Assembly (NCBI RefSeq): GCF_013304445.1
Contig: NZ_JAAITA010000022.1
Span: forward strand, 1-47,963
DNA length: 47,963 bases
Source of the DNA: Blautia hansenii
GTDB taxonomy: Bacteria > Bacillota > Clostridia > Lachnospirales > Lachnospiraceae
Direction: 5' to 3'
Positions 3,658 through 30,570 of this stretch are shown here, piece after piece. The notes beneath the pieces were generated by a model. That model was not told where the DNA came from, did not search any database, and was given only the letters and a program-made list of their open reading frames with translations. The position numbers and the translations under genes are program-made. Numbering within the stretch: position 1 is the first letter of the stretch; the number at the start of each line of letters is the position of its first letter.

Positions 3658-3905
3658 TCTTCATCCTCCTCTTCCAGTTCCATTTTATATTCTTCCAGAT
3701 CCATAAGAAAAACCTCATATCCTTCATCGCTCATGCAGAACAGTTTTCTTATGGTATTGCAGACAAGCCCGATCATATCTGCATCGCCTTTCAGAAAAGG
3801 AATGATATGATCGATTGCCTCCATCGTGTCATTTCTGTTTCCTTTATCAAACATTGCTGTTACTAAACATTCATCCGCATCAAAGTTCATCGCCAAATCC
3901 ATCAT
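3654..3905 (-). CDS. TTRAP-like transfer-assisting small protein
   Basis: This acidic protein has 83 residues; a start at the second or sixth Met is possible. The core NFDADECLVTAMF, TMEAIDHIIPFL and DMIGLVCNTIRKLFCMSDEGY has the layout of the transposon-encoded transfer-assisting protein family (TTRAP) of Clostridia ICEs. That assignment is by recalled pattern. The ORF ends in a run of Glu and Asp. It overlaps the upstream giant gene and the downstream YodL gene by ATGA overlaps on both sides, so all three are probably translated in series. The molecular role in transfer is not known. Confidence 0.6.
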   Translation of the reverse strand: MMDLAMNFDADECLVTAMFDKGNRNDTMEAIDHIIPFLKGDADMIGLVCNTIRKLFCMSDEGYEVFLMDLEEYKMELEEEDEE

Positions 3906-6900
3906 AATTCCACTTCTCCCTTCTTATGTGTCTTGGATTTCTCCGTTGTCTTATTCTGCTCCTGAGCTTTTGCCCTTGCCTGAAAATCTTTTAAAGACTG
4001 CAGCACAGATTTCTTCACTTCACCTTTTGCTCTGCTTGCAGGTTCTGCCTTTTGTGGCTGGCTCCGATTTACAGATACCGGTTCCTGCTCTGCCCTTCTG
4101 TCTGCCGCAACCGCAGAAGGTTTCTGTCCACTTCCTATTACTGTTTCTGTCGTATGTTCCGTTTCCTTTACCCTTCCATGCTTTTCATCCAGATACTTTT
4201 CCATGTCTGCGATTGCTTTCTGCACCAGAGGGCTTTCTTTATAGTGTGGAATCATATCTATCAGATCACGCCGTATCCGGTCTGCACTCATCAACTCATA
4301 TTCTCCGGAATAATTTTCATCACCATCTTGCAGATCAAATCCGATTCCTTTAATCCCATGCAGTCTCTCTGCTGGGATACTCTCATATATTTTAATGGCT
4401 TCTTCTAAAGTGAGGTTGTTATGGTACTCTCCCATGACCGGAAACTCCATGCACTCTGCGACATAAAAACTGATCGTGGCTTCTGGCTGTTCCTGCTCCG
4501 GCTGTTTGTCAAAAATAGAAAATCGCTCTGTATCTTCCAGACGGGAAAGTAAAGAACGGGCAGTTATAACATCGCTGTCTATATCGGATTCCTCGGATAC
4601 CTCAAGCAGCCAGTCCTTGATAGTTTCTGTTTTCTTATTCAAAATATCCTCCGTGAGTTTTTCCACCTGTTCTTCTCTATTTTCAACTGTATCGTTATAC
4701 TCATAGGTATCAACGTCATAGCTAAAATTATCCAGGTCCACAGCGAGCTTTTTAATCTCCTGCTGGTCAAGATATTTTTCGGATTCTTTTATATACTCTG
4801 CCAGAGTGATTCGCTCCTCTGCAATCGGGTTAATATCCACCTTAATTCCTGCCATCGCTATACCAGATTCATTTAAGGCATTGAAAAAGCTATCTTCTCG
4901 AATATCACCTTTATAGGAAAGAACCACATCAAGGTCAGAATCTTCCCGGTAAAGGTCTTGTCTGCTTCTGGAACCATACACTCTTGCAGCAAGCAGCTCT
5001 ACCTCCTGTTCCATTCCCATATCTTCTAATACTGCCTGTGCATGATACAAGACACCTCTTTCAACATCTGCCCTGCTCAGACTGTTTAATGCCAGTTCAT
5101 TTCTTCCAATCTCAGAAGTCGCACGAAGTTCCCCCTCCTGCAATAAATCTTTAGAGTGCTGGATCGTCATTTCTTCAAATTCTTTATAATCCACTTTGAC
5201 ACATTCCATATCATCCATTCTTTCACTTTTAAGGATTTCATAAGCAGCTTCCTGAATAGATGCGTCTGGATTATCATAATCACCACCCTGGATTTCATGC
5301 AAATCAGAGTCATAAAAAATAAACGAATATCCTTCTTCTGTTGCCTGTATGGTCAGATACCCTTTACTCCTGGTAAACTGCATTGCGATTCCTTCATAGG
5401 TTTGCATTGCTTCTTCCCTGCGAAATCCTTCAAAAATACTTGCCGGGCAGTTCTTTTCTAATTGTATCCGCTGCATTTGTTCTTCCTGAACTTCTTCCAC
5501 ATCTGCCATCAGATCTTCGTAATCCACTACTTTTGCATCTTCCAGTGAGTACCCTTTATCTTCTAAAATATCACTGGCAGCTTCATCTACATAGATTGTC
5601 GGATTGTCATAGATTCCTCCATCATCCTCCTGATAATCTTCATTATAAAATGTATAGTCATAGCCATCTTCTGCGGTCTGGATTGTAAAGTATTGTTTTC
5701 CAATCTGATATGCAATCTGTACCTCATTCCAGTCCAGCATGTTTTCCATTTTATTTACCGCTTCATATATTTCTGGATTCAGCCACCCTCCGATCTGTTC
5801 ATACGCATGGGTAAGCCGATCTATTCCGTTTTCACATCGGATGAAATCCATGCTTTCCTGCATTGTTTCCGTATTCTGGATACCAAGCACTTTTTCCTGA
5901 TGATTGGGCAAACGTAAATACTCCTGCATCGCTTCATCCAGTGATTCATACCGGTTTACTTTTACTACACCTTCTGCATTTACATCTTCCATCACATAAA
6001 AATTATCAATGTAATGGATCTCTGGCATCTTTAATTTTATTCTTTCCGGAAGCTGCACCTCACTGACTGCATGGAAATTAAACCGGACATCCGTTCCAGA
6101 TTCATTTTTTCCTTCCATCGTTTCTTCCCAGGTATCTTTCTGTACTGCCTGTATTTCTTCGATTGTAAGTGTCTGTCCACTCCGCAGGGTTACAGCAGAA
6201 TCTTTCGGGAATTCCGACAAATCATAGAGTGTTGTTCCATTTTCCTGCAAATATTCTGATACAGCTTCTAACGCTCCTGCATCAAACCCATTCCACAAGT
6301 CCTCCGCTACAAGCTGTCCATTTTCCGCTACGATAATGCCTGCCACATCGGAGCCAAATTCATCATGTTCCATTAAGAAAAACTTCTCCCCGGCATATTC
6401 CTTTTCATCAACCGTATGCCATGTCCCATTATGTCCTTCTGCTTCATACCCTCTTGTCTCTGCCGTGATCGTCACTTCGTTTTCTCCTATCGCCTGTTCT
6501 ATCCTCTGCATCCGGATCTCAGCTCTTGCCATGTCGATAAACCCATCTAAAACTGCCGGGTGGCTTTCGATCACATAATCCAGGTTCAGATTTCTGCCCC
6601 GGCTGATATTTTCCGGGACTTCGATATGCTCCGCCCAGTCTTTGTTCTGTCTGGAAAATCTTCCATCATGGAAAAGTTCACGGATGGTATTTGCCATAAC
6701 AAAATTCATACGTTCTTCCCCGAAGCGTTCCACGACTTCTTTTGCCGCATCCTGCTTTAAGTGCAGCCCGTCAAAATTCTCCCGGATGGCTTCTTCGATT
6801 GCTTTCTTACAGTCCAGGTTTAACTTTCTGGAATCCAGATAAGCATCCACATCCCGTTCTCCCATTGCCTGTTCCAATGTTCCTTTATAAACTGGCGGAT

Positions 6901-9262
6901 ATGCCCTGACGGAATTATGTTCCAGCATGTTCATTCTCTGCTGGACAAACTCCGGAAGTTCCTGAAATCCAAAAGAATCTACATAATAGGCTGTGATCTC
7001 TGCACCCCTGTTTATCACGATCACATCACTTACCGATAAGGAATGGCCACGGAAATCTTCCGGTCGGTCAATGTTAAAGCGTTCAAATATATTGTCTAAC
7101 GTGATCGTTGGCATCCACGGTGCTGCATAAACCATCCTGTAATCCTTTCCGTCAATGGTATAGCCCAGACTCTTTGCGGATTCCATTCCCATAAACTGAT
7201 AAGTATGCTCATCTCCGGTATCCATCTGATAAATGGCAAACCTTCCGCTTTCTCCATGCAGAAGAAGTGTCTCATCAATCTTTTCTGCACTCTGCTGTAC
7301 CAGTGCTTCCTGTTTTGTAGCAGATATTTCTCTCTCTTTCTGCACTTCCCATTCTGTTTCTGTGATTCCAAAGATACCGTCATATCCAAGGATCTCACTT
7401 TCCGTCTCCACAAGCATCTGTTCTGCCCGTTGTGGATTCTCTGGATTTCCGTGTAAGATATAAATTTCTGCCCCTCCACGGTACAGTTCATATGCCCGGT
7501 CTTTCGTAAGCGGGAGCATATGGTCTAACTGAATTCCTGCCTCGTGCATTTCCGTAAAACCGATCATGCCATCCGGGAAATTGTCAATCTGTGCCTGTGT
7601 TTCATTCATAAGGCTTCTCGTATATTCACTTCCCGGTCTGCGGATTGCGGTCATCATACGGTTCACCAGTCCAAGCACTTCGTCTTTGTCATCCATCTTA
7701 TATGCAAAATTCACAATAAGATTTCTCTGGGAATCTGTGAAATTTCCTGTATTTGCAGCTTCTGCCGTTTCAATCAGACGGTGAGCATACTGCATGGCTG
7801 TTTCTTCTACAATCTCCGGTTCTTTCACTGGGAAGTTTGCCCTTGCTGCCTGGATTACTTCATACACTAGCTTTGAACCGGCTTCATCGTAAGATTCCCT
7901 CATGTCCCATACCAGGTCATTCAGTCTTTCCACCCGTCCGGGGAAAGTTTCTGCATATTCATTTACAAATGCCTTTTCTTCTTCTGAAAAAATATTTCTT
8001 GGAAACTCTGCTTTATGCACCAACATCTCTGCCTGCTCTTTCGGAGAAAGGTCAGAAAAATAAGTAACGCCTGTGTCAGCATCATATTCCACATCATAAA
8101 AATCAATCGGATAATTCTCTCCGTGTCCACTGCTGTCATAGAGTGGTGTGACGGCAGCACCTTTTTCCTCCAGAAAACTTTCCAGTGGTTTCTCATTCTC
8201 CTCTATCTCACCACTTTCCAGAAGGCGGACGTATTCCCCCACATTCTGCTCTAACTGTTCCCTGCTCATGTTTTCGATCAGGTCATAAGTAAACTCGGAA
8301 CCCATGCTGCCTGAAAGACGCAGGATCAAATCTTCCTTATGGAAGGTATCCCGCACCGGTCTTTCCATTTCCAGTTCGTGCATCTGTGTCTCGATATTCT
8401 CAATGACTTCTGCAGACGTTTTCCGGATGGTATCCATAGATGCCCGGAGTGCTTTCATATCCTTGCTCTCACACCAGCTGGCAATATAGGTAAAAGAGTA
8501 TTCTGAAGTATCCAAACCAAAGTGATTGCAGACAATATAGGCAATACTTTCTGCTTCTACTTCTTTTGTTGTCCGGTCTTTTAAAATTCCTTCCGCATCC
8601 ATTACCTTCCGGTCATGCAGCAATGCATGGCTTACTTCGTGTACTTCGGTTTTCATGGTCTGAAGATTACTCATATCTTCCTGAATTGCAATATACTTTT
8701 CTGTCTGATGATAATAGCCTTTTGCTTCCCCTTCTATTTCCATCATGCGGATTGGCACAGGAGAAATGTTCTGCAATGCTTCCATAAATGTGTCATAAAA
8801 CTGTACACTCCCGGTAAGTTCCGATACTTCCAGCTCTGCAATCGGCTCTCCCTCTGTCTGGCTGACATCAAATACCGTTGTCACACGGAACCTTGGAATG
8901 ACCATCTCCACGATCTCTGTTTCCGGCTGACCGTCATCCCCGATCACCGGCTCTTTTGTTACAGGGTCAATCTTTTCAATCTCCTGTTTCTCACGGATGG
9001 GTGCCGGTGCGATGATCTGGATTCCTTTTTCCCCACGTTTTACATGGCGGTTAAACTTCTTCTGCCACGCCTGATACCCTGCCACCAGAGTAGCCTCCGG
9101 TTTCTGCATGGTGATCAGAAGGGTGTTATTAAAACTGTAATTATGGAACTTGGACATGGTATTCAGATATTCCGTATACCGTTCCGAAGTAAAAATCTCC
9201 TTTACGCCCTGTTCCAGCCGTTCCGATATTTCTTTTAACTGTTTCTCTATATTATTTGCCAT
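3902..9262 (-). CDS. Giant ArdC-type polyvalent protein with zincin and nucleotidyltransferase domains
   Basis: The protein has 1,786 residues. The N-terminus (1-130) is an ArdC-like ssDNA-binding domain (FHNYSFNNTLLI, GYQAWQKKF, RHVKRGEKGI). A zinc-metallopeptidase motif HEVSH follows at 208-212. A YodL-like domain starts near 676 (FAIYQMDTGDEHTYQFMG) and contains SLSVSDVIVI. Two tandem copies of a roughly 65-residue module (YFTIQTAEDGYDYTFY, then YLTIQATEEGYSFIFY) lie near 1190-1340. A nucleotidyltransferase motif GSRSRQDLYREDSDLDVVL is near 1429, with a further Asp in VKVDINPI. A last domain (ATISFYVAECMEFPVMGEY) precedes a basic tail. Proteins of this kind are thought to enter recipients with the transferred DNA and counter host defences; antirestriction is known for ArdC, while the role of the full fusion is inference. 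No gene break is seen. It lies directly downstream of the helicase remnant. Confidence 0.8.
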   Translation of the reverse strand: MANNIEKQLKEISERLEQGVKEIFTSERYTEYLNTMSKFHNYSFNNTLLITMQKPEATLVAGYQAWQKKFNRHVKRGEKGIQIIAPAPIREKQEIEKIDPVTKEPVIGDDGQPETEIVEMVIPRFRVTTVFDVSQTEGEPIAELEVSELTGSVQFYDTFMEALQNISPVPIRMMEIEGEAKGYYHQTEKYIAIQEDMSNLQTMKTEVHEVSHALLHDRKVMDAEGILKDRTTKEVEAESIAYIVCNHFGLDTSEYSFTYIASWCESKDMKALRASMDTIRKTSAEVIENIETQMHELEMERPVRDTFHKEDLILRLSGSMGSEFTYDLIENMSREQLEQNVGEYVRLLESGEIEENEKPLESFLEEKGAAVTPLYDSSGHGENYPIDFYDVEYDADTGVTYFSDLSPKEQAEMLVHKAEFPRNIFSEEEKAFVNEYAETFPGRVERLNDLVWDMRESYDEAGSKLVYEVIQAARANFPVKEPEIVEETAMQYAHRLIETAEAANTGNFTDSQRNLIVNFAYKMDDKDEVLGLVNRMMTAIRRPGSEYTRSLMNETQAQIDNFPDGMIGFTEMHEAGIQLDHMLPLTKDRAYELYRGGAEIYILHGNPENPQRAEQMLVETESEILGYDGIFGITETEWEVQKEREISATKQEALVQQSAEKIDETLLLHGESGRFAIYQMDTGDEHTYQFMGMESAKSLGYTIDGKDYRMVYAAPWMPTITLDNIFERFNIDRPEDFRGHSLSVSDVIVINRGAEITAYYVDSFGFQELPEFVQQRMNMLEHNSVRAYPPVYKGTLEQAMGERDVDAYLDSRKLNLDCKKAIEEAIRENFDGLHLKQDAAKEVVERFGEERMNFVMANTIRELFHDGRFSRQNKDWAEHIEVPENISRGRNLNLDYVIESHPAVLDGFIDMARAEIRMQRIEQAIGENEVTITAETRGYEAEGHNGTWHTVDEKEYAGEKFFLMEHDEFGSDVAGIIVAENGQLVAEDLWNGFDAGALEAVSEYLQENGTTLYDLSEFPKDSAVTLRSGQTLTIEEIQAVQKDTWEETMEGKNESGTDVRFNFHAVSEVQLPERIKLKMPEIHYIDNFYVMEDVNAEGVVKVNRYESLDEAMQEYLRLPNHQEKVLGIQNTETMQESMDFIRCENGIDRLTHAYEQIGGWLNPEIYEAVNKMENMLDWNEVQIAYQIGKQYFTIQTAEDGYDYTFYNEDYQEDDGGIYDNPTIYVDEAASDILEDKGYSLEDAKVVDYEDLMADVEEVQEEQMQRIQLEKNCPASIFEGFRREEAMQTYEGIAMQFTRSKGYLTIQATEEGYSFIFYDSDLHEIQGGDYDNPDASIQEAAYEILKSERMDDMECVKVDYKEFEEMTIQHSKDLLQEGELRATSEIGRNELALNSLSRADVERGVLYHAQAVLEDMGMEQEVELLAARVYGSRSRQDLYREDSDLDVVLSYKGDIREDSFFNALNESGIAMAGIKVDINPIAEERITLAEYIKESEKYLDQQEIKKLAVDLDNFSYDVDTYEYNDTVENREEQVEKLTEDILNKKTETIKDWLLEVSEESDIDSDVITARSLLSRLEDTERFSIFDKQPEQEQPEATISFYVAECMEFPVMGEYHNNLTLEEAIKIYESIPAERLHGIKGIGFDLQDGDENYSGEYELMSADRIRRDLIDMIPHYKESPLVQKAIADMEKYLDEKHGRVKETEHTTETVIGSGQKPSAVAADRRAEQEPVSVNRSQPQKAEPASRAKGEVKKSVLQSLKDFQARAKAQEQNKTTEKSKTHKKGEVEL

Positions 9263-18686: not shown

Positions 18687-20606
18687 TTAAGCTAACTTGT
18701 GGAACATATGCCGAACCTTATCTATACGGCTATTCGGGCGGCGGGGTTGGCAAATAAATTTACCAATAGCTGGCTGGTATCCTTTTAACTCTGTCAAGCA
18801 GACTCCCTGCCCATTTGTGAAATAAGTTAAATCGTTCCTGTATTCTTGAATACATCTAGCAGGGATTTCTCCTTTCAGAATGACCTCGTCATTCTTTATC
18901 TGAGTACTTACAATATCTGCACAATACCTTGGAGCATCATGATACGCCCGTGAGAGATATTCCTGCGGTGCATAAATTTCAAAGTGGAGATATGGCTCTA
19001 ATAGTTCTGTCCCTGCTTTTTTTAAAGCCTGCTCCAATACGATAGGGGAAAGCAGCCGAAAGTCTGCGGGGGTACTTACAGGACTATAATACAATCCATA
19101 TTCAAAACAGATTTTACAGTCTGTCACTTTCCATCCATACAGCCCCTGCTCGCAGCCATAAAGAACCCCCTCCATAACCGCATTTTGGAACGATTGATTT
19201 AAATATCCAAGTGAAACTCTGCTTTCATACTGCACTCCGCTTCCAATAGGGAGCGGCTCTATGGACAACCCGACAGAAGCCCAGAAAGGATTTGGCGGGA
19301 CTTCTATGTGGATGGTATATTCTGCTTTTCTAAGCGGTCTTTCCATATATATAACAGTAGGCTCTTTTATTTCTGCCTCCACATGATATTTTTCCTCAAG
19401 GATGGCACAAATGACTTCCATCTGCACATTCCCCAAAAAAGAAAGTATAATCTCATGCGTTGTAGTATCCACATAATATTTTAAAAGAGGGTCGCCATCT
19501 GAAATTTCTGTAAGTGCCCCAAGCAATATTTCCCGCTGTTCAGATTTCTTTACTGCAATCGTTGTTTGGAGCATAGGGAGAGGATTTTCAATAAATTTTC
19601 TCTGCGGCAACAGTATTTCGTTCCCCAAAATACTGTTTAGCTGCAAAACATCATTTGGTAAAATTACAATATCACCAGAGCAGGCTGTATCGGATGAATA
19701 TAATTCACCGTTTGTCGGAACACACATCTCTGTGATTTTTATTTTCTCTTTTTCAGATATTCTAATAACATCCCTCAAATGCAATGTTCCGCTATATATA
19801 CGCACATAAACAAAACGCCGCCTTTTCTCTGAATATTCAATCTTAAAAACCTGCCCGCATAGTTCAGATTGACCTTCAGGCGTTGATGAATAAAATTTAC
19901 TGGCAATTACTTCTATAAGCTGCCGAATCCCCAGATTGTTTTTAGCGCTTCCGTGATAAACGGGAAATAACGTTCCGTTTTGGAATCTCCTGTTTTCTTC
20001 CTGTTCCAGTTCTGACATTTTAAACGGTTTCCCTGACATATATTTCTCTAATAGTTCATCGTTTCCCATAATTACCGCATCCCACTGTTCCATATCGTCA
20101 TTGTCCGTTACATTTATATGGGGATGCTGCCCAACCTTTTGCTTCACTATAATTTCCGAAGAAAGCTTTGCTTTCATTTCCCGATATACCATTGGCAAAT
20201 CAATCCCCTCTTGGTCAATTTTATTGATGAAAAAAATTGTCGGAATCTTCATTATCTGTAGTGCATGAAACAGTATACGGGTCTGTGCCTGTATGCCATC
20301 CTTTGCAGAAACTAATAATACTGCTCCGTCTAATACGGATAAAGAACGGTATACTTCCGCCAAAAAATCCATATGGCCTGGCGTATCTATAATGTTGACT
20401 TTTACATCCTCCCACTGAAAAGATGTCACTGCTGTCTGGATAGTGATTCCCCTTTGACGCTCCAAATTCATTGTATCTGTCCTTGTTGTGCCTTCATCTA
20501 CGCTCCCTAGTTCTGCAATTGCACCACTGGTATACAATAAACTTTCCGTTAATGTTGTCTTTCCTGCGTCAACGTGAGCCAGAATGCCTAAGTTAATTAT
20601 TTTCAT
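18687..20606 (-). CDS. tet(O): Tet(O)-family tetracycline resistance ribosomal protection protein
   Basis: This 639-residue EF-G-like GTPase binds the tetracycline-stalled ribosome and removes the drug. The G1 motif [10 protein letters not shown] lies at about 10-19, DTPGHMDF (G3) near 74-81, and NKID (G4) near 128-131. The length equals the usual Tet(O)/Tet(W) length. The N-terminus ([19 protein letters not shown]) and the text throughout read as Tet(O); mosaics such as tet(O/32/O) cannot be excluded by eye. AGGAGG lies 8 bases upstream of the ATG. It is preceded by a tet(M)-type attenuation leader and followed by the KTR gene. It is complete and should give resistance. Confidence 0.95.
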
Positions 20607-20640
20607 GTGATTTTCCTCCTATCAACACCCAAAAAAGGGC

Positions 20641-20679
20641 ATAAAAATACCCAGTGATAAATACTCCTATCACTGGGTA
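20641..20679 (-). terminator. tet(O) leader attenuator hairpin
   Basis: Perfect 12-base arms TACCCAGTGATA (20648-20659) and TATCACTGGGTA (20668-20679) are followed on the minus strand by a TTTTTAT run. It lies between the leader peptide and the tet(O) start. In tet(M) leaders such a hairpin stops transcription unless tetracycline-slowed translation changes the folding. Confidence 0.85.
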
Positions 20680-20741
20680 AATAACTCCAATAGCCCCAAA
20701 ACACTTATATGTTTTCGGGCATATAAAATTACATGATAAAA

Positions 20742-20846
20742 GTATTCTTAAACTGGGTACAAAAAACTAAGCCCCATATTAAAAGTGAAACGGGACTGCT
20801 ACTTTTTGTTCCCACTATCAAATTGACAGTTTATTTAAGAATACCT
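20742..20846 (-). promoter_or_regulatory. Alternative pairing region of the tet(O) leader
   Basis: GTATTCTTAAACTG (20742-20755) can pair with the leader-peptide coding region (CAGTTTATTTAAGAATACC on the plus strand, 20828-20846). This links leader translation to RNA folding, as in the tet(M) model. Confidence 0.6.
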
Positions 20847-20854
20847 TGCCGCAT
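20831..20854 (-). CDS. tet(O) leader peptide MRQGILK
   Basis: An ATG at 20854 lies 9 bases after AAGGAG and encodes MRQGILK, then TAA. This short ORF is the same type as in tet(M) leaders. Its coding sequence overlaps one arm of an RNA stem, so its translation could sense ribosome availability under tetracycline. Confidence 0.7.
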   Translation of the reverse strand: MRQGILK

Positions 20855-20886
20855 ATTTATTAACTCCTTGTATAATACTGAATCTA

Positions 20887-20915
20887 ATTATATTCCTTAA
20901 CCCTTTATTTGTCAA
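20887..20915 (-). promoter_or_regulatory. tet(O) promoter
   Basis: On the minus strand TTGACA (20910-20915) and TATAAT (20887-20892) are separated by exactly 17 bases. Both hexamers match consensus perfectly. The start would fall near 20880, about 25 bases before the leader peptide. Confidence 0.9.
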
Positions 20916-20972
20916 GCTGACAAACTAAAGCAGAAAAAGCGGCAGGATTTCCCCCTGCCACTAATCATCTGT

Positions 20973-21347
20973 TTATGCAAAAATAATTTCCTTTTCCACA
21001 ATCTCCCTCGCACAAGCCCTTATGTTATTGAGGCATCCTGTCCATTCTAAGGCGTTTTCTGCCTTTAGCTGTTCCGTTATGCCCTGTGCCTGTTTCATAC
21101 CCTCTATGAGCCTTTCAAAGCGTTCCTGTGCCTGTCTGTTGATGTCGGCAAGGTAGGCGTTTAGCCTGCCGCTTGTAAGAAGATTGGTGTATGTAACTTT
21201 ACGGTACTGTTTTAGATAATCTAAATGCCGTTGCCCCCAGATGCCTATTGCCTGTTCTTCTTCGGCGGGTACAGTTAAGCACGGTATCAAATAATCCCCT
21301 TGCCTTTCGTATTTGCCGCCCAGTTCCTCAAATAATGATTTTGCCAT
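20973..21347 (-). CDS. tnpV: TnpV-family transposon protein of IME1
   Basis: The protein has 124 residues, [20 protein letters not shown], then [20 protein letters not shown] and [20 protein letters not shown]. This is the TnpV family, first known from Tn4451-type elements with large serine recombinases; its function is not established. GGAGG lies 9 bases upstream of the ATG. It is the first gene at the right end of IME1, 56 bases from the attachment core, so its promoter could partly lie in the flanking ICE or at the joined circle ends. Confidence 0.85.
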
Positions 21348-21402
21348 TGTCTGTTACCTCCACATTCTTTTTTATTTTGAATGTCCGCAAAATCCGTCCT
21401 AC

Positions 21403-21407
21403 ATCAG
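21403..21407. other. IME1 attachment core, right junction (ATCAG)
   Basis: The sequence reads CCTAC-ATCAG-ACGGCTTCC, with IME1 left of the core and the ICE helicase gene right of it. Together with the left core it is a 5-bp direct repeat flanking the element. Confidence 0.8.
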
Positions 21408-24400
21408 ACGGCTTCCACGGACAGTCAAGGTGATGCAGAGCAATGAGCCTGTCTTGCACGTTGGTACCAGCACCGAGTTTCGGTGTAGAACCCATGAGGA
21501 TTCTCACCTGTCCGGCCCGCACCTTTGTAAACAGTTCCGCTTTCTTTGCCTCCGTGTTATATTCATGGATAAAAGCAATCTCTTCTTTCGGGATTCCTCT
21601 GGCAACCAGCTTCTCCCTCACATCATCGTAAACATTGAAACTGCCATCCCCTTTTGGTGTGGACAGGTCACAGAAGATCAGCTGGGTTGTCCGGTCTGTC
21701 TTTCCCTCATCCCATACCTGAAAAGCATTTTCCACACAGGTATTGACCTTGCTTTTTTCGGCATCCGGGAGAAGTTCATTCAACAGTCTCTGGTCAAGGG
21801 CACATTTTCTTCCATCATTCGTGATTTTCAGCATGTTGTCCTCGGTCGGATTTACTAAGCCTGCCCTTACGCTTTCCGCACGTTCCGAAAATGCCCCGAC
21901 CATTTCCTGCTGTTCCTCGCTTGGTTTTAAGACTTCATTGATAAACTCTGCTTCCGGCACTGGAAGATTCAGCATATCAGAAGTCTGAATATCTGCAGCT
22001 TCCTTAAAAATGGAGATCAGCTCCGGAAGATTAAAAAAACGGGCAAACCGTGTTTTTGCACGATAGCCCGTTCCTTCCGGTGATAATTCGATTGCGGTCA
22101 CTGTCTCCCCGAACGTTGCCGCCCAGGAATCAAAGTGTCCCATACCCATACGCATGAGTGTGTCATACTGGAGATAACGCATGATAGTGTAAAGCTCTGT
22201 CATACTGTTCGATACGGGAGTACCTGTAGCAAAGGTGATTCCTCTGCCGCCGGTCAGTTCATCCATGTACCGACATTTCATAAACATATCCGAACTTTTC
22301 TGTGCATCCGTCTGTGAGATACCCGCCACGTTCCGCATTTTTGTATACAAAAAAAGGTTCTTAAAACTATGGCTTTCATCCACAAACAGCCGATCTACCC
22401 CCAACTGCTCAAAGGTTACTACATCATCCTTTCTGGTCTGGTCATTGAGTTTCTTCATCCTCGCCTGCAGACTCTTTTTTGTTTTTTCCAACTGCTTGAT
22501 GGTATAATTCTGCCCTGCCTGATGTGCTGCTTCTTCAATGGAAAACGTAATATCTGCAATCTGATCTTCCAACATGGCAATCTGACGTTCCCTTGAAAGA
22601 GGGATTTTCTCAAACTGTGTATGTCCGATGATCACCGCATCATAATCCCCTGTCGCAATACGGGAACAGAACCGTTTTCGGTTTGCTGGTTCAAAGTCTT
22701 TCTTCGTTGCCACCAAAATATTTGCTCCCGGATAGAGGCGTAAGAAGTCACTGCCCCACTGCTCGGTCAGATGGTTTGGCACAACATAAAGATTCTTCTG
22801 TGAGAGTCCCAGCCGTTTTGATTCCATACCGGCTGCGATCATCTGGAATGTCTTTCCAGCTCCTACGCAATGAGCCAGTAACGTATTATTTCCATACAGC
22901 ACATGAGCCACTGCGTTTTTCTGATGCGGCATCAGAGTAATCTCCGGATTCATGCCAACAAACTGAATATGGCTTCCATCATATTCCCGTGGACGGATGC
23001 TATTAAATCGTTCATTATAGATCTTACAGAGATCTTCCCGTCGGTGCAGGTCTTTAAATATCCACTCCTTAAATTCCTCTTTGATCAGTTCCTGCTTCTG
23101 CTGTGCCAGCATCGTTTCCTTCCGGTTTAATTCCCGGTGTTCTCCCTCGGCATCCTGTACCGTGTCATAAATCTTGGTATCTCTAAGATTTAAGGCATCT
23201 TCCAAAAGGCGGTAGGCATTGGCTCTCTGTATTCCATAAGTGGAAGTAACAAGAGCATTTCCGTAGCTGTCCACATTCTTTCCCATAACATTCCACTGTC
23301 CGGTCACTTCGGCATACTGGACTTTGACCTTGCTCCCTACATAATATCTTGGTGTATGGAATGTCTCTGCCATAAACCGTGTAATGTAATCCTCGGAGAT
23401 CCAGGTTGCCCCAAGTCTTGCCTCAATCTCTGATGCATCCAGATCTTTTGGCTGTACCTGCTCCAAATACTGCACGTTCACCTGATATTCCGGGTGATTT
23501 TCTGCAAACTGTTTGGCAATCTGCAGTTTCTCCCTCACATTTCCAGAAAGATATTCGTCCGATGGCTCCCATTTTTCACTGATTGGGTTCTTAAAGATTA
23601 CCCCTGCCAGTTCTTCGGTAAGCTCCTCTTCTGTTTTTCCGGAAAGCTGTGCCATATAGGAAAGGTCAACGCCTGCCCTCTCACCGATAGAAACCGCAAG
23701 TGCTTCACTGGCAGTATCTACAGAAGTTACCGTTTCTGCCCTGCGGATTGTCCTTTTGGTAAAAATATCCGCTTTCCGTTTCAGTTCTCCCTTATCATCC
23801 AGAAATTCCAGAGAAGTCAAAAGACAATAGCTGCTGTCCTGGCTAAATGCCCGCTTATTGGCATTACTGCTAAGCAGACCATATTTTACTGTAAAGGTAT
23901 CGTATTCTTCATTGAGTTTTCCCTGCAGCTTTGTGATCTGTTCATCGCTTCCCTCTTCCATCTGGCACTGGATCAGTTCATTCGTAACATCACGGATCTT
24001 CACCATCCCTTTGACACGTTCCGCTGTCATTGCCGGAAGTTCCATCCGGTTCATCACAGAGTTTTCCCGGTAATACACTTCCTCATTGACCACCGTAAAG
24101 CTGAAATTCTTTACTTCCGGGTCTGCTGGAATGGACACCACATCTTCTTCCAGTTCGGTATCGGAAAGTTCCAGTTCCGTAATGGTACCATGTATATGCT
24201 TTACAGCTTCCTTTAACTGCTCCTCTAAGGTTATTCCCTCTTTTGGTCTTACGGTTACTTCCTGCTTTCCATACTGGGTACTCTCCGTTGTAAACTCTCC
24301 AAGCACCATTTCCGGATGATCTGCAAAATACGCATTGACCGAATATCCTTCGGCAGTTTCCTTCAGATGTATCCAGTCCGGTTCCTCGATGGAAGTCCTG

Positions 24401-27239
24401 TCTCTTTTCTGGAAAAATAAAATATCGGAAACAACACCTGTATTGGCATTTCTCTGGAACGCATTATTTGGAAGGCGGATCACCCCTAATAACTCTGCCC
24501 GGTTTGCAAAATACTGTCTGACTGCCTGATTCTGCTTATCCATCGTCCCACTGGAAGTCACCACGGCTACCACACCACCGGGACGAACCAAATCAAGGGA
24601 TTTTGCGATAAAATAATCATGGATCAGAAAATGGTGGCGGTCATATCTGCGGTCACTGACCTGATATGCTCCAAATGGTACATTCCCGATCACGCAGTCA
24701 AAAAAGCTGTCCGGGTAATCTGTTTCCTCAAATCCCTGTATGGCAATCTTATTTTTCTGGTAAAGCTGCCTTGCAATCCTGCCCGAAACCGGGTCGAGTT
24801 CCACACCGTACATATTAGTTTTGCTCATACTCTCCGGGATCAGTCCCATAAAGTTACCAACACCACAGGACGGTTCCAGAATATTTCCCTGTTTCAGTCC
24901 CATATTTTCCAGTGCTTCATACATGCTTCGGATCACGGTCGGTGATGTATAAAAAGCATTTAAGGTCGATGCTCTTGCTGCACTGTATTCTTCCGGTGAT
25001 AAGGTATTCTTTAACTCCAGATACTCATTTGTCCAATTACTGTTATTCTCTTCAAATGCCTGCGGGATGCCACCCCAGCCAACATAACGGGATAAAATTT
25101 CCTGTTCTTCGGGTGTTGCCAGACGTTCTTCCTGCTCCAGAGTCTGCAATAAATGGATGGCTTCCATATTTGCTTTATACTTTGCTTTCGGACCACCTGC
25201 TCCAAGGTCATTATCCTGAATCCGAAAGTTATGCGGTTCTGTTACAATCTCTTCTACTTCCGGTTTTAAATATGGTTGAAATTCTCCCTCATATCCAAAC
25301 AGTTCATTTTCTCCGGGAATATAATTGTGTCCGGTTTCCAGACACCGGAACACATCGGCAGTTGGTGCATTGCTGACTGCATAAAAATCATCATAAGAAT
25401 ACTTTGGGAAATCTTCTGTATGGTAGGTTGATAAATGCAGTTCTGTATTGGAACGGGTCTGTGCAACCAGATCTTTTCCTTCTATTCCTTCCGGCAATAC
25501 CCCTACTGCTTCAAAATGATACCCCTGATACTCAAAAACACCTTCATCCCAGGACTCCGTTATCTCTTCTTCTGATTCCTTTTGTTCCTGTCCCTCAGAA
25601 GTTTCTGTTATTTCCTGTTCCTGATTTTCCGGAATATATTCTTTGGCAGTAACCTCTTCCTCTTCTATTTCCTCCACATCTGACATATCTACTACGGTCG
25701 GTTCTGTCACCGCCTTCGTATCCAAGAAATCAAACATGGTCATCTGGTGCCCGGATGGTTCCGCAAAAGACGGTTCTGCTTCCAGTGTCGGGAAAATCGT
25801 ATAGGTTCCTTCTGCATACTGGTGAAGTTCTGAAAGAAGTTCTGTTTTCTGCTGGTAGTTTGTCCCATATGCCTCAAAATCTAATGGCAGAACTGCCAAT
25901 GCTGCATCCATCTTCTGTAACAGTTCTTCTGCCTGCTCTGGATTCTCTAAAACTGCCACCATTTCTTTTCCTGGTTTTTCCCAGAAGAAATCATCCGTAA
26001 ATGGTCTGTCTATCTCTTCCGGAAGACGGTCATAAAAGCGGAGTACCTTGTTTGCCATCTGTTCCCGTTCATATTCCGGCATACGAGCATAATCTTCTGC
26101 CTGCAGGAACTGGTCATTCTTTATCAGATAAGCTACTCTATTTGCAACTTTATTCCAAGATAATAAAACTGATGTATATGGATTTCCATAAGCACCTCTT
26201 GCAAGAAACAATCCTTTTCCATCATAATTTGCGTGTGAATCATCGGCACCAGACAGTGCATGACTGCTTCCACCGATCCCATACTGTTCCTTGATAAAAC
26301 CTGTCCTCGATCTTTCATCCTCATGCAGCAGATAAAAGGAATATGTCCTGAGTCTGCCTTCGGAATACGCCCCACCTCTGACAAGAAATGCGTCGATCTC
26401 GTCTTGTGTAATGAACATCTGCTGTTCTTTCCATGCAAATCCCTCTCTTGCCTGGTATGGGATCACTTCATCTGCAAACTTCTGGAACTGTCTGGAGATA
26501 TTGACCGGATTATAATGATGGAAACGCATAAGAGAGTTGTCCGTCTCATAGGCTTCTGCCAGTGCTTCCAGTCTTTCATTCAAATCCGAAAGCCACCCTG
26601 GATCTTGCAGTTTTTCAGTAAGATAATCCGTGATTTCCGGATAAATACTACGAAGATGCGGCAGATCTGCTTCATCAAAGACAATCTCTGCCACACCTTC
26701 TGCCATATCCCCTTTCATATAAGCAAGTGCCTGTGCGTGTTCCTTCAATGCGTTGTCCCTTGCCACATCCAATACCGACTGCGGGGCATATTCTCCCTGA
26801 TTTAAAAGCTGATGGATACGTCTGCTGACATCTTTCCAGGATAAAAAGGCTTTATCCAGAATCTGGTCTGCCACCGTATGCCCGACTGCGATCTGCATCC
26901 CAGTTTCATCAAACCAGACGGAATACTCCCTTCCATCCATCTGAAAACCTTTGCCGCCTTTTCTATACTCACGCTTTACAAACTCCGTGTATTCTCCCGG
27001 TGACTGTTCACTCATAAAGTTATAGATGATACGCAGCTGGCTTCCTGTCCGGTTTCCTCCCGTCCGTAAAATATCATCCACAACACTTTCCGGAATAGGA
27101 ATCTCCCCGGCATAAAAAGCAGCTACTCTTTCACCAATCTGCCTTTTCTGTTCATTTGCTGTAGGATATTCGGGCAAAGATAAAGCAGAGGCAATTTCTT
27201 CCTCTGCTTTGCTCAGTCCATCTTCTCTTGTATCTTCAA

Positions 27240-27581
27240 CTAGCTGTATACCAATTCCGTCAAGATGCTCTCTTCCGCTGTTGCCATCAGTGCGTTCATA
27301 TGTGCTGTCCAGGCCATCGGGTCTGCTTCCTTGTCCGGTGCCGGATGGTTCTTCAGCAGTTTCTCCATCTGGCTGTCCATCCTCTCCTGTGCTGCCTTCT
27401 CGATCTCTGCCAGATGGCTGTTCAGCTTTCCTGTCAGGAACAGGCTCTGATACAGGCTGTTCTTGTGTTCCTTCAGGAATGTCCTCCGAAGCATCCCGTA
27501 TTTCCCTATTGTCACTTCTTCCTCCTCTACGGTCAGGTTCGGAAACAGGTAATCCCCCTTGCGATGATATGTCAGTTCCAT
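27240..27581 (-). CDS. TnpV-family gene encoded in a second frame inside the helicase gene
   Basis: The ORF has 113 residues from [18 protein letters not shown], on the same strand as the host gene but shifted by one base. A textbook ribosome binding site, AAGGAGG, lies 8 bases before this ATG. It aligns along its whole length with the TnpV of IME1: [10 protein letters not shown] against [28 protein letters not shown] against [18 protein letters not shown], and [10 protein letters not shown] against [10 protein letters not shown]. In the host frame the same bases encode a low-complexity, disordered-looking segment (Gly, Glu, Ser, Asp, Pro, Arg-rich, residues about 294-407). This is a real dual-coding region by homology, not a random shadow. 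TnpV function is unknown. Expression would have to come from the helicase transcript by internal initiation. Confidence 0.8.
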
Positions 27582-28479
27582 AGTCGGTTCCTCCTTCATT
27601 CTCGATATTTTCTTCTTTGTTGTTTTCTACGCCCTTATTTTCACGCATTAACGTGTTAAAGTTATTATAATTCCTTTCATTGGAAATTTCAACCTCTTTT
27701 CTGGCTTCTTCCAGAGAAATTTTATGTACCGTCCTTCCAATGTCAATCAGAACACTCTCACTGATCTGGCTTGCTGCATTTCCAAGAAAGGTCAGTACAG
27801 ACAGCCGGTTATAATCGGTAATATGCATAAAATCCTCTTCTTCCAGAAGCTCCATCGGTTCCAGACCACACCGTCTGCAAAGCATGTAATATACACTGTC
27901 CGTTGCAAGCTGGCGGAAATCACTGCGGACCGTAACTTCATCCAGATCTTCCAGATACGTTCCTTCCGCTGCATATTCCAAGCCGTCCAGATATTCTTCC
28001 AGACTGTCTGCGACCATTTCCCTTGCAACCGCCATCAACGCATCCGATAAAGTCCCTGTATCTTTTTCTTCCAGACCATACGCTTCTGCCAGATGGGTAA
28101 GAATCTCTTCCTGCTGATGTTCCTGCATCTGCCACAGGTAAGGGCTTCTTCCGCCTGCCACCATGTGCGTATCTGAAATATCAAACACATACCGGAGTCT
28201 GGTATTATGACCATTCTCGTCAAGCAGGGCGATTCCCCTAGCTCCCCGGTTTACCCAGCGGAACATCTTCTCATTCCACAGTTCCAGGGACGCACAGGCG
28301 GTTGCCTGTGGATGCTGTGCGTGGATCAGTAACTGGTCTGTAAAAGGATACCGGTATAGTCTCGCTGCGGTATCCATATAACCCATCCAGTCCCTTGGCG
28401 AACTGCTCACCGATGTCGCATGTTCCTGTGCCAGTTCCCGGATGTCCTGTAATTTCGACATACTGCCTACCTCCTTGCC

Positions 28480-30570
28480 TTATTTCTTCTTTGGAAATTC
28501 CAGATGGAACCTTGGCTTTCCGTCCTCCAGTGTCAGTAAAAGGTCTGCGTCAAACTTTATATCTTTTTTTCTGGAATACAGCCCTTTTACATGGGTGCAG
28601 GCTTTATCAAGAAGCTCCACTGCCATCTTTTTATCCAGTGTTTTCTCCATGCTTCCTAAGAAACGGTTTTCTTTCCAAAGGGCAAAATCACACTGCCTGT
28701 TGGAGCAGTAAAAATTCTGCTTTCCTTCGTAGACATCAGAGCCGCAGACCGGACACTTACCAATCACTTCCCTTGCTTTCTGGAACCTTCTCCTTTCCGT
28801 TTCCGGTATTTCCCTGCACACAGAAAGAATCTTACCGACTAAAGAAGTGATCTCACCCATAAACTGTGTATCGGTGATCTGCCCTTTTTCCATCATTAAA
28901 AGCTGATTTTCCCATTCGGCAGTCATTGCGGCAGATTTCAGATAGGCCGGCATGACATTCACCAGTTCCCTGCCCTCTGTGCTTGGCAAGATCTGCTTTC
29001 CTTTTCTGACTGCATAGCCGGAAGAAACCAGTTTTTCAATGATACCTGCCCTGGTTGCCGGAGTCCCCAGTCCTTTCTTCTCTGTCTCCGAATCAAAGTC
29101 TTTATTCCCTGCGGTTTCCATAGCGGCAAGGAGGGTATCTTCATTGAATGGTTTTGGCGGGGAAGTAAAATGCACTGTCTTTTCTGCCTTTACCGAAGAA
29201 AGCGTCATTCCTTCTTCATATCCATATGGAATGGAAGTTTCTTTTTCCGTTTCTTCTTCCGGCTTGGCTTTCACGCACTGATTCTTAAAGGCATTCCCCG
29301 CCGCTTTAAATCCCATCTGCACCGGCACTTTTCCTCTGGCGGTAAAATCATGTCCCTGACATTTGACCGTAATATCCGTCTGCTCATACTGATACTCTTC
29401 CCCTGTTGCCTGCACCAGCTGCTGGCAGACCAGCATCATCAGGTTCTTTTTGTCCGCTGTCAGATCAGAGATTCCTTTTTCTACGGCTTCTTTTGTTGGA
29501 AGAATCGCATGATGGTCGGATACTTTTGCATTGTTAATCACTCTGGTGATGTTATGTCCCAGCTGTCCATAATCCAAGAACGGAAGTAAGACTGGCATTT
29601 TCCCTACCAGTTCCTCTACGGTATCCCTCATATCCTCCGTCACGAACTGGCTGTCCGTTCTTGGATAAGTGACCAGCTTTTCTTCATATAATTCCTGCAG
29701 CATATCCAGTGTTTTCTTTGCCGTATAGCCAAAGTAACGGTTTGCTTCCCTTTGCAGACTGGTCAAATCATAAAGTTTGGGAGGAAACGCTTTCTTTTGT
29801 TCCCTCTTTACCTGTGTAATCACTGCTTCCGAATCCATACATAAGGAAGCAAGGAGATCGGCTGCTTCCTCATTTGCAATATTTTCAGAAACTACCGTAA
29901 GCCTTCCGTCTGTCAGTGCTACTTTATAAAAGGCTTCTTTCTGAAAATGCTCAATCTTATCCTGACGTTCCGCAAGCATGGCAAGCGTTGGCGTCTGCAC
30001 CCTGCCCACAACCAGACGTTTAAAATAACAGGTCGTATATGCCCTGGTTCCGTTCATTCCGATCAGCCAGTCTGCCTGTGCCCTGCATACCGCAGCCATG
30101 CAAATATTCCGGTATTCCTCTGCTCCTTTCATTGTCTGAAAACCTGTCCGGATTGCCGTATCTTCCATGGAACTGATCCATAAACGCTTCACCGGTTTCC
30201 TGCATCCGGCAAGGTCATACACTCTCTGGAAGATCAGTTCCCCTTCCCTTCCTGCATCACAGCCATTTACCAGATAGTCCACATCTGCCCGGTTCATCAG
30301 GCTTTTTAACACATCAAACTGTTTCTTCTTATCTCTGGAAACTTTCAACTTCCAGACCTGCGGGAGAATCGGAAGGTCATCAAACTGCCATTTCCCATAT
30401 TTCGGGTCATATTCCTCCGGCTGTGCATACTCTGCCAGATGCCCAAGGCACCAGCTGACAATACAGCTCTCCCCTTCTAAATATCCGTCCTCTTTTTTAT
30501 AAGCTGACAGATTTTTGGCATAACTCTGTGCCACACTTGGTTTCTCTGCGATCACTAAAAATTTTGACAT
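28480..30570 (-). CDS. topB: DNA topoisomerase III, type IA, ICE-encoded
   Basis: The protein has 696 residues. The N-terminal Toprim domain begins FLVIAEKPSVAQSYAKNL and has NGCDAGREGELIF. The active-site Tyr lies in VTYPRTDSQ near residue 302. A C-terminal zinc-ribbon-like part, CPVCGSDVYEGKQNFYCSNR, follows, then a basic end. Type IA topoisomerases pass single strands; ICE copies of this enzyme probably resolve DNA during processing and transfer. It ends 18 bases before the methylase-helicase start, so the two are co-transcribed. It is intact and of usual length. Confidence 0.93.
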   Translation of the reverse strand: MSKFLVIAEKPSVAQSYAKNLSAYKKEDGYLEGESCIVSWCLGHLAEYAQPEEYDPKYGKWQFDDLPILPQVWKLKVSRDKKKQFDVLKSLMNRADVDYLVNGCDAGREGELIFQRVYDLAGCRKPVKRLWISSMEDTAIRTGFQTMKGAEEYRNICMAAVCRAQADWLIGMNGTRAYTTCYFKRLVVGRVQTPTLAMLAERQDKIEHFQKEAFYKVALTDGRLTVVSENIANEEAADLLASLCMDSEAVITQVKREQKKAFPPKLYDLTSLQREANRYFGYTAKKTLDMLQELYEEKLVTYPRTDSQFVTEDMRDTVEELVGKMPVLLPFLDYGQLGHNITRVINNAKVSDHHAILPTKEAVEKGISDLTADKKNLMMLVCQQLVQATGEEYQYEQTDITVKCQGHDFTARGKVPVQMGFKAAGNAFKNQCVKAKPEEETEKETSIPYGYEEGMTLSSVKAEKTVHFTSPPKPFNEDTLLAAMETAGNKDFDSETEKKGLGTPATRAGIIEKLVSSGYAVRKGKQILPSTEGRELVNVMPAYLKSAAMTAEWENQLLMMEKGQITDTQFMGEITSLVGKILSVCREIPETERRRFQKAREVIGKCPVCGSDVYEGKQNFYCSNRQCDFALWKENRFLGSMEKTLDKKMAVELLDKACTHVKGLYSRKKDIKFDADLLLTLEDGKPRFHLEFPKKK

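Follow-up and report, generated by a model that had tools for sequence, protein, structure and literature searches.

The question raised by this locus is whether one stretch of DNA inside a large helicase gene of a conjugative element encodes two proteins in two reading frames. In the window, which comprises positions 1 to 47,963 of contig NZ_JAAITA010000022.1 of Blautia hansenii, the host gene is an open reading frame on the minus strand (21328..28461), 2377 aa long as it stands, with methylase and SNF2 helicase domains recognized by Pfam (SNF2-rel_dom, Eco57I and ResIII, above cut-off). A type IA topoisomerase gene (28480..30570, minus strand; Pfam Topoisom_bac, E = 1.5e-99) lies directly upstream, and the genes around it mark a CD1108/CD1110-type conjugative element. 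A second ORF (27240..27599, minus strand) is located inside the host ORF. Its start is an ATG at 27581, 8 nt after an AAGGAGG motif (27590..27596, minus strand) that is likely its ribosome-binding site, and from there it encodes 113 aa (27240..27581, minus strand) in the frame +1 relative to the helicase, over the bases that the helicase frame reads as residues 294-407. The positions stated in the initial annotation all hold. Based on comparison with relatives, we propose a true two-protein overlap in which the same DNA would specify a linker of the helicase and a TnpV protein, with a probability of about 0.92. The comparison shows selection maintaining both frames, conservation of the internal start and co-inheritance of the two genes.

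Identity, occurrence and start site of the nested gene

The nested ORF matches the Pfam family PF14198 over the full profile (positions 1-111 of 111) with an E value of 3e-33 and 114.5 bits, the curated cut-off being 27 bits. An end-to-end alignment with the separate TnpV of the window (20973..21347, minus strand; Pfam TnpV, E = 3.4e-45) had been claimed, and it was reproduced with 35% identity over 112 columns and an E value of 1e-24. The predicted structure is that of a helical protein with a pLDDT of 90. It should be mentioned that the TnpV profile used for searching was built by iteration in this analysis and cross-checked with Pfam, which confirms 36/36 of its members in alignment A1 and 41/41 in alignment A5; eight more distant relatives are divided into five above the Pfam cut-off and three below it (16.2, 24.8 and 20.9 bits), the proteins under it coming from S. 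agalactiae, Anaerococcus and locus L058. For the TnpV of Tn4451, a role in excision was postulated from homology with lambda Xis, according to the accessible part of that source (PMC3158075). An accessory role in the processing or excision of element DNA fits the company of TnpV best and may be its job, a proposal that we would put at even odds.

The separate tnpV is carried by an inserted element (18687-21347) that cuts the 3' end of the helicase gene and also bears a ribosomal protection gene of the TetM/TetW/TetO family. The nested tnpV, positioned upstream of this cut, is whole.

Of 145 related genomes, 63 contain TnpV-like places and 39 the N-terminal part of the helicase, the two often coinciding. 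With the N domain as query, matches were obtained in 78 of 291 genomes from the class and in 23 of 299 from the phylum; these numbers also count short matches to other ArdC-like proteins. From these genomes, from named contigs (the best 80 of 581 relatives) and from viral contigs, 214 distinct N-domain places were collected, each with an N match covering at least 60% of the profile. The tnpV gene is wholly within the helicase ORF at 200 of these 214 places, and it is in the +1 frame at 200/200. The initial annotation had considered that such overprinting would be unusual; within this helicase family, however, nesting is the norm and nothing peculiar to this element. For 176 of the 200 nested places the helicase region that follows was located in the same ORF. 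In 179 of the 200 the TnpV match extends over almost the entire profile, and these 179 form the set used for the stop-site and start-site counts given below.

The remaining 14 places include six that run off the contig (L190, L245, L306, L310, L370 and L374) and five with a broken helicase frame and an intact tnpV (L172, L308, L315, L327 and L328). In another of the 14, L160 (G009:C1:5460000-5477000), an insertion of about 9 kb separates the N domain from the nested tnpV, which is without its first residues. In L372 the ORF ends together with the N match, without a tnpV behind it. Locus L246 (G219:C68:6193-11430) is the sole open helicase among the 214 without tnpV; none was found there even by a more sensitive search, and its N and C matches are 69 nt apart. 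L246 is placed, weakly, among the tnpV-bearing rows. Two Enterococcus faecalis helicases (L383 and L390) and L207, all with more distant N domains, were also searched and no tnpV was found in them.

The 200 nested places come from genomes with 39 different family codes in the collection, in addition to named families. The nested pair is also present in plasmid records of Cohnella, Monoglobus, Subdoligranulum, Virgibacillus, Streptococcus agalactiae, Aerococcus, Anaerococcus, Ruminococcus albus and two Listeria, with a short outer ORF in some of them (436 aa in Aerococcus, 501 aa in one Listeria). The arrangement ranges over Clostridia and Bacilli, and also Tissierellia with a TnpV-like protein under the Pfam cut-off. 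Outside the helicase, a TnpV gene (L391, 4998-5360) was observed near an aminoglycoside resistance gene on the IncHI2A Salmonella plasmid CP123681; the family was otherwise seen here in Bacillota.

The start site of the nested gene is similarly recurrent. An SD match of at least 6 nt precedes 132 of 179 nested starts, whereas 60 of 2399 control places taken from the N domain reach this length; a site like that of the window is conserved in relatives. The start is an ATG in 168/179. The match is shorter than 6 nt in the other 47 of the 179, for six of which the rule found no start; an earlier count under a different rule gave a 7 nt SD in 38/49. Where the flanks have diverged, the SD is still conserved, as is the ATG that coincides with the beginning of the TnpV profile. 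Internal initiation is likely to be the mechanism by which TnpV is produced. Alternatively, ribosomes translating the helicase frame could undergo programmed frameshifting and yield an ArdC-TnpV fusion, TnpV then having no start of its own. The constant +1 frame of TnpV, close behind the N domain at all 200 nested places, is compatible with such a frameshift, and in L315 the N domain and TnpV are even in one and the same frame. However, L315 is a single case and looks like an ordinary indel because its C region sits in another ORF, and the conservation of the SD and ATG where flanks have diverged also argues against frameshifting, which we consider very improbable.

With internal initiation, one shared mRNA would bear the ICE helicase ORF. 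Ribosomes starting at the helicase ATG would continue through the tnpV stretch, which would then become a disordered linker joining the ArdC-like N domain to the methylase-helicase part; others would initiate at the internal SD and ATG and translate the +1 frame into the 113-aa helical TnpV. Nesting of this kind would couple the dose of TnpV to that of the helicase.

Selection in the two reading frames

To compare substitutions, 51 disjoint pairs with 72-97% identity in the N domain were drawn from 176 loci. At helicase codon positions 1/2/3, the substitution rates are.077/.050/.222 in the N domain and.093/.066/.247 in the C region. In the overlap they are.162/.076/.051, where these positions correspond to TnpV positions 3/1/2; the second position of TnpV codons is thus the least changed and the third the most. 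The rate at position 1 exceeds that at position 3 in 51/51 pairs for the overlap, in none for the N domain and in three for the C region. In a scan along the gene the codon pattern flips at the borders of tnpV. A bias arising from alignment in the TnpV frame was ruled out, since alignment in the helicase frame yields the same pattern, with position 1 to position 3 ratios of 2.76-4.0 in three tnpV bins vs 0.22-0.64 in 29 other bins. No further hidden gene was seen in the covered part of the helicase, which stops short of the 3' part, the 29 other bins being ordinary; bins at least 500 codons downstream rest on 11-25 pairs.

Ratios of site classes were calculated with our own script in the manner of OLGenie, as that method is described in the accessible part of the source (PMC7531306). 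For TnpV, the dN/dS-like ratios are 0.35 (0.29-0.40) and 0.13 (0.09-0.19). From these sequence comparisons, the tnpV frame in the overlap is under purifying selection at the protein level. One could still argue that tnpV is a decaying inserted gene and that the helicase frame alone matters, considering that the helicase is a core ICE gene and that TnpV function is without proof. This is scarcely credible to us: the TnpV codon pattern is present in every one of the 51 pairs, and five of 214 places have a broken helicase with a whole tnpV, vs the one open helicase without tnpV (L246).

The helicase frame leaves a different trace. At TnpV third positions that precede AA, AG or GA, a T would create a stop in the helicase frame, and in the 179 nested genes T is found at 0/6760 such positions. 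T occupies 14.1% of 13702 other TnpV third positions, and 16.8% of the same stop-making contexts in stand-alone tnpV genes, a figure in which L254, L256 and L266 are still counted. When synonymous codons were drawn at random for the 179 nested TnpVs, the helicase frame was open in 0.02% of draws with the codon use of the N domain and in 3.4% with the pooled codon use of the nested TnpVs themselves. Each of the 179 genes has 6-26 stops in the third, unused frame. Among stand-alone tnpV genes the helicase-equivalent frame is open in 0/71, all having stops; this count was reduced from 74 by removal of L254, L256 and L266, which have an open partner frame and ORFs with a partial N-domain match.

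At the amino-acid level, the helicase-frame ratio is 0.61 (0.46-0.82) for dNS/dSS, where the change is silent in TnpV, and 1.64 (1.45-1.89) for dNN/dSN, where it is not. The latter value would speak against constraint on the protein, but the classes compared sit on TnpV positions of unequal weight. Amino-acid-level selection on the helicase frame in the overlap appears weak and mixed, and by these counts the frame is mainly kept stop-free. A chance ORF was ruled out by the TnpV codon pattern in 51/51 pairs together with this avoidance of stops. The view of the initial annotation that both frames are plausible as genes is upheld by the same two results, and the substitution comparison in homologues that it proposed gave 0.35/0.13 for TnpV and 0.61/1.64 for the helicase. 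The opposite expectation, that relatives lack the tnpV frame and that selection acts on the helicase frame alone, is contradicted: 200 of the 214 places keep the tnpV frame, and in the overlap it is this frame that is under protein-level purifying selection.

The helicase protein is predicted to read the overlap as a disordered linker following an ArdC-like domain. Residues 264-430 (27172..27672, minus strand), which contain the entire overlap, have a pLDDT <50, in agreement with the disordered-looking linker noted earlier from the host frame. The preceding N domain (27672..28461, minus strand) was found, when tested, to have the ArdC fold. A Pfam scan of this domain in the window returned no family and no ArdcN match; in its relatives ArdcN was detected in 4 of 38 at E values up to 0.01, the best being 0.00045. 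The first conserved helicase region past the overlap (26800..27171, minus strand) shares the frame of the N domain, was located within the same ORF for 176 nested relatives, and has the ordinary helicase codon pattern. It is noted that another ORF of the window (3902-9262, minus strand; 1786 aa, with YodL, DUF3849, LPD18 and LPD16) also has an N-terminal ArdC-like domain (ArdcN, E = 4.4e-12), making this module common to two giant ICE proteins.

The position of the overlap at a domain boundary and the weak amino-acid constraint there would also suit an arrangement in which the stretch is translated only as tnpV, the ArdC-like and helicase parts being two proteins and the big ORF open by chance. 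The gene tables of two plasmid records, from Cohnella and Monoglobus, give TnpV and omit the big ORF. Against this arrangement, the absence of helicase-frame stops at 6760/6760 possible sites, the small share of open frames in random synonymous draws (0.02-3.4%) and the many stops of the third frame all have to be set; moreover, the gene table of PLSDB has gaps, and in the Monoglobus record the big frame has a stop within the N domain. We judge it very improbable and retain the reading of the helicase as one protein. The Virgibacillus table shows the reverse, with the SNF2 protein present and TnpV absent. Given the incomplete plasmid table and the Monoglobus stop, these tables at most suggest that gene callers pick one of the two overlapping frames.

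History of the nesting

The distances of N domain and TnpV agree with each other (Spearman 0.736, n = 166; permutation maximum 0.172), as expected from one old nesting followed by joint descent. Which frame came first may be judged from codon use. The synonymous codon fit to the host gene is +0.051 for the TnpV frame, -0.056 for the helicase frame and -0.052 for the third frame, and the TnpV frame has the better fit in 123/166. Since codon use fits the TnpV frame and the helicase frame resembles an unused one, tnpV is probably the original frame and the helicase reading the younger. The likely course is that tnpV was present, or became inserted, where the ArdC-like part meets the helicase part, that the big frame read through it once and early, and that copies later moved to mobilizable elements. 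The initial annotation had left two histories side by side; of these, tnpV first is favoured by codon use and by the disorder of the linker.

In that reverse order TnpV would have been born de novo within an existing helicase linker, which concerns the history only and leaves the two-protein reading as it stands. A midpoint root does put nested TnpVs on the deepest branches with stand-alone ones among them. The better codon fit of the TnpV frame, a helicase frame that fits no better than the third, the disorder on the helicase side of the overlap and the 69 nt between the N and C matches of L246 weigh in the other direction, and we consider de novo birth unlikely, at perhaps one chance in four.

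The TnpV tree comprises 172 rows (124 nested, 48 stand-alone) and 116 columns and was rooted at its midpoint. The label of nested or stand-alone changes 11 times on it, at least nine times by well supported branches, and the deepest forks are nested rows; some free copies in the tree could be decayed nested ones. Given a single origin of nesting, these label changes suggest that free tnpV genes descend repeatedly from nested ones, which would amount to repeated escape to free life. The neighbours of the 71 stand-alone tnpV genes resemble those of mobilizable elements, with a serine-recombinase-like family at 18 loci and a Mob-like one at 11, both names being read from sequence. We offer as a tentative scenario, somewhat short of an even chance, that tnpV was nested once early in Bacillota and that the free genes, including those that ride on ICEs by inserting into the helicase gene, are multiple escapees whose products may work on the same partner as the TnpV of the ICE itself.

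Relation to known systems and significance

Nested genes are a known kind, and the case of tnpV within a helicase gene seems unreported in the open papers searched. The nested protein is of the same family as Tn4451-type TnpV (PF14198) across the full profile; that TnpV, however, is described in the accessible text as the product of its own, separate gene on mobilizable transposons (PMC3158075), whereas here the gene is within a helicase gene. The host gene resembles the SNF2/COG4646 gene of ICEs of the Tn5252 and Tn1549 families in its methylase and SNF2 domains, as recognized by Pfam, and in its CD1108/CD1110-type conjugation neighbours, but a second gene inside it goes unmentioned in the accessible portions of published descriptions. 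An SNF2 gene with an inserted element is shared by the window and Streptococcus suis, insertions of mobilizable elements being known from the part of the source available (PMC7168690). In the accessible sections of PMC6139136, Rz/Rz1 of phage lambda likewise has a small gene entirely within another in the +1 frame, although the proteins are unrelated to those described here; spanin pairs can be embedded, overlapped or separate, in both frames, whereas the 200 nested cases here occupy one place and one frame. The comS gene in srfAB of Bacillus subtilis is also small and is read in a different frame of a giant gene; unlike the predicted folded protein at about 200 mobile-element loci described here, it encodes a small regulator in one chromosomal operon, as far as the accessible text goes (PMC12915044). 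No report of tnpV inside an SNF2 gene was found in the accessible parts of open-access papers (including PMC3158075, PMC9815147, PMC5633684, PMC10782964, PMC7168690 and PMC11913394), which is weak evidence of absence because these are open papers only.

If the overlap indeed yields two proteins, TnpV, known from small transposons, would become a core ICE protein. The SNF2/COG4646 gene is conserved in common ICEs of Bacillota and has so far been taken as one protein; its knock-outs, the mobilizable-element insertions in it and its annotation would then need re-reading. A bacterial nested pair with about 200 distinct sequences would also be useful to test how overlaps begin, persist and end.
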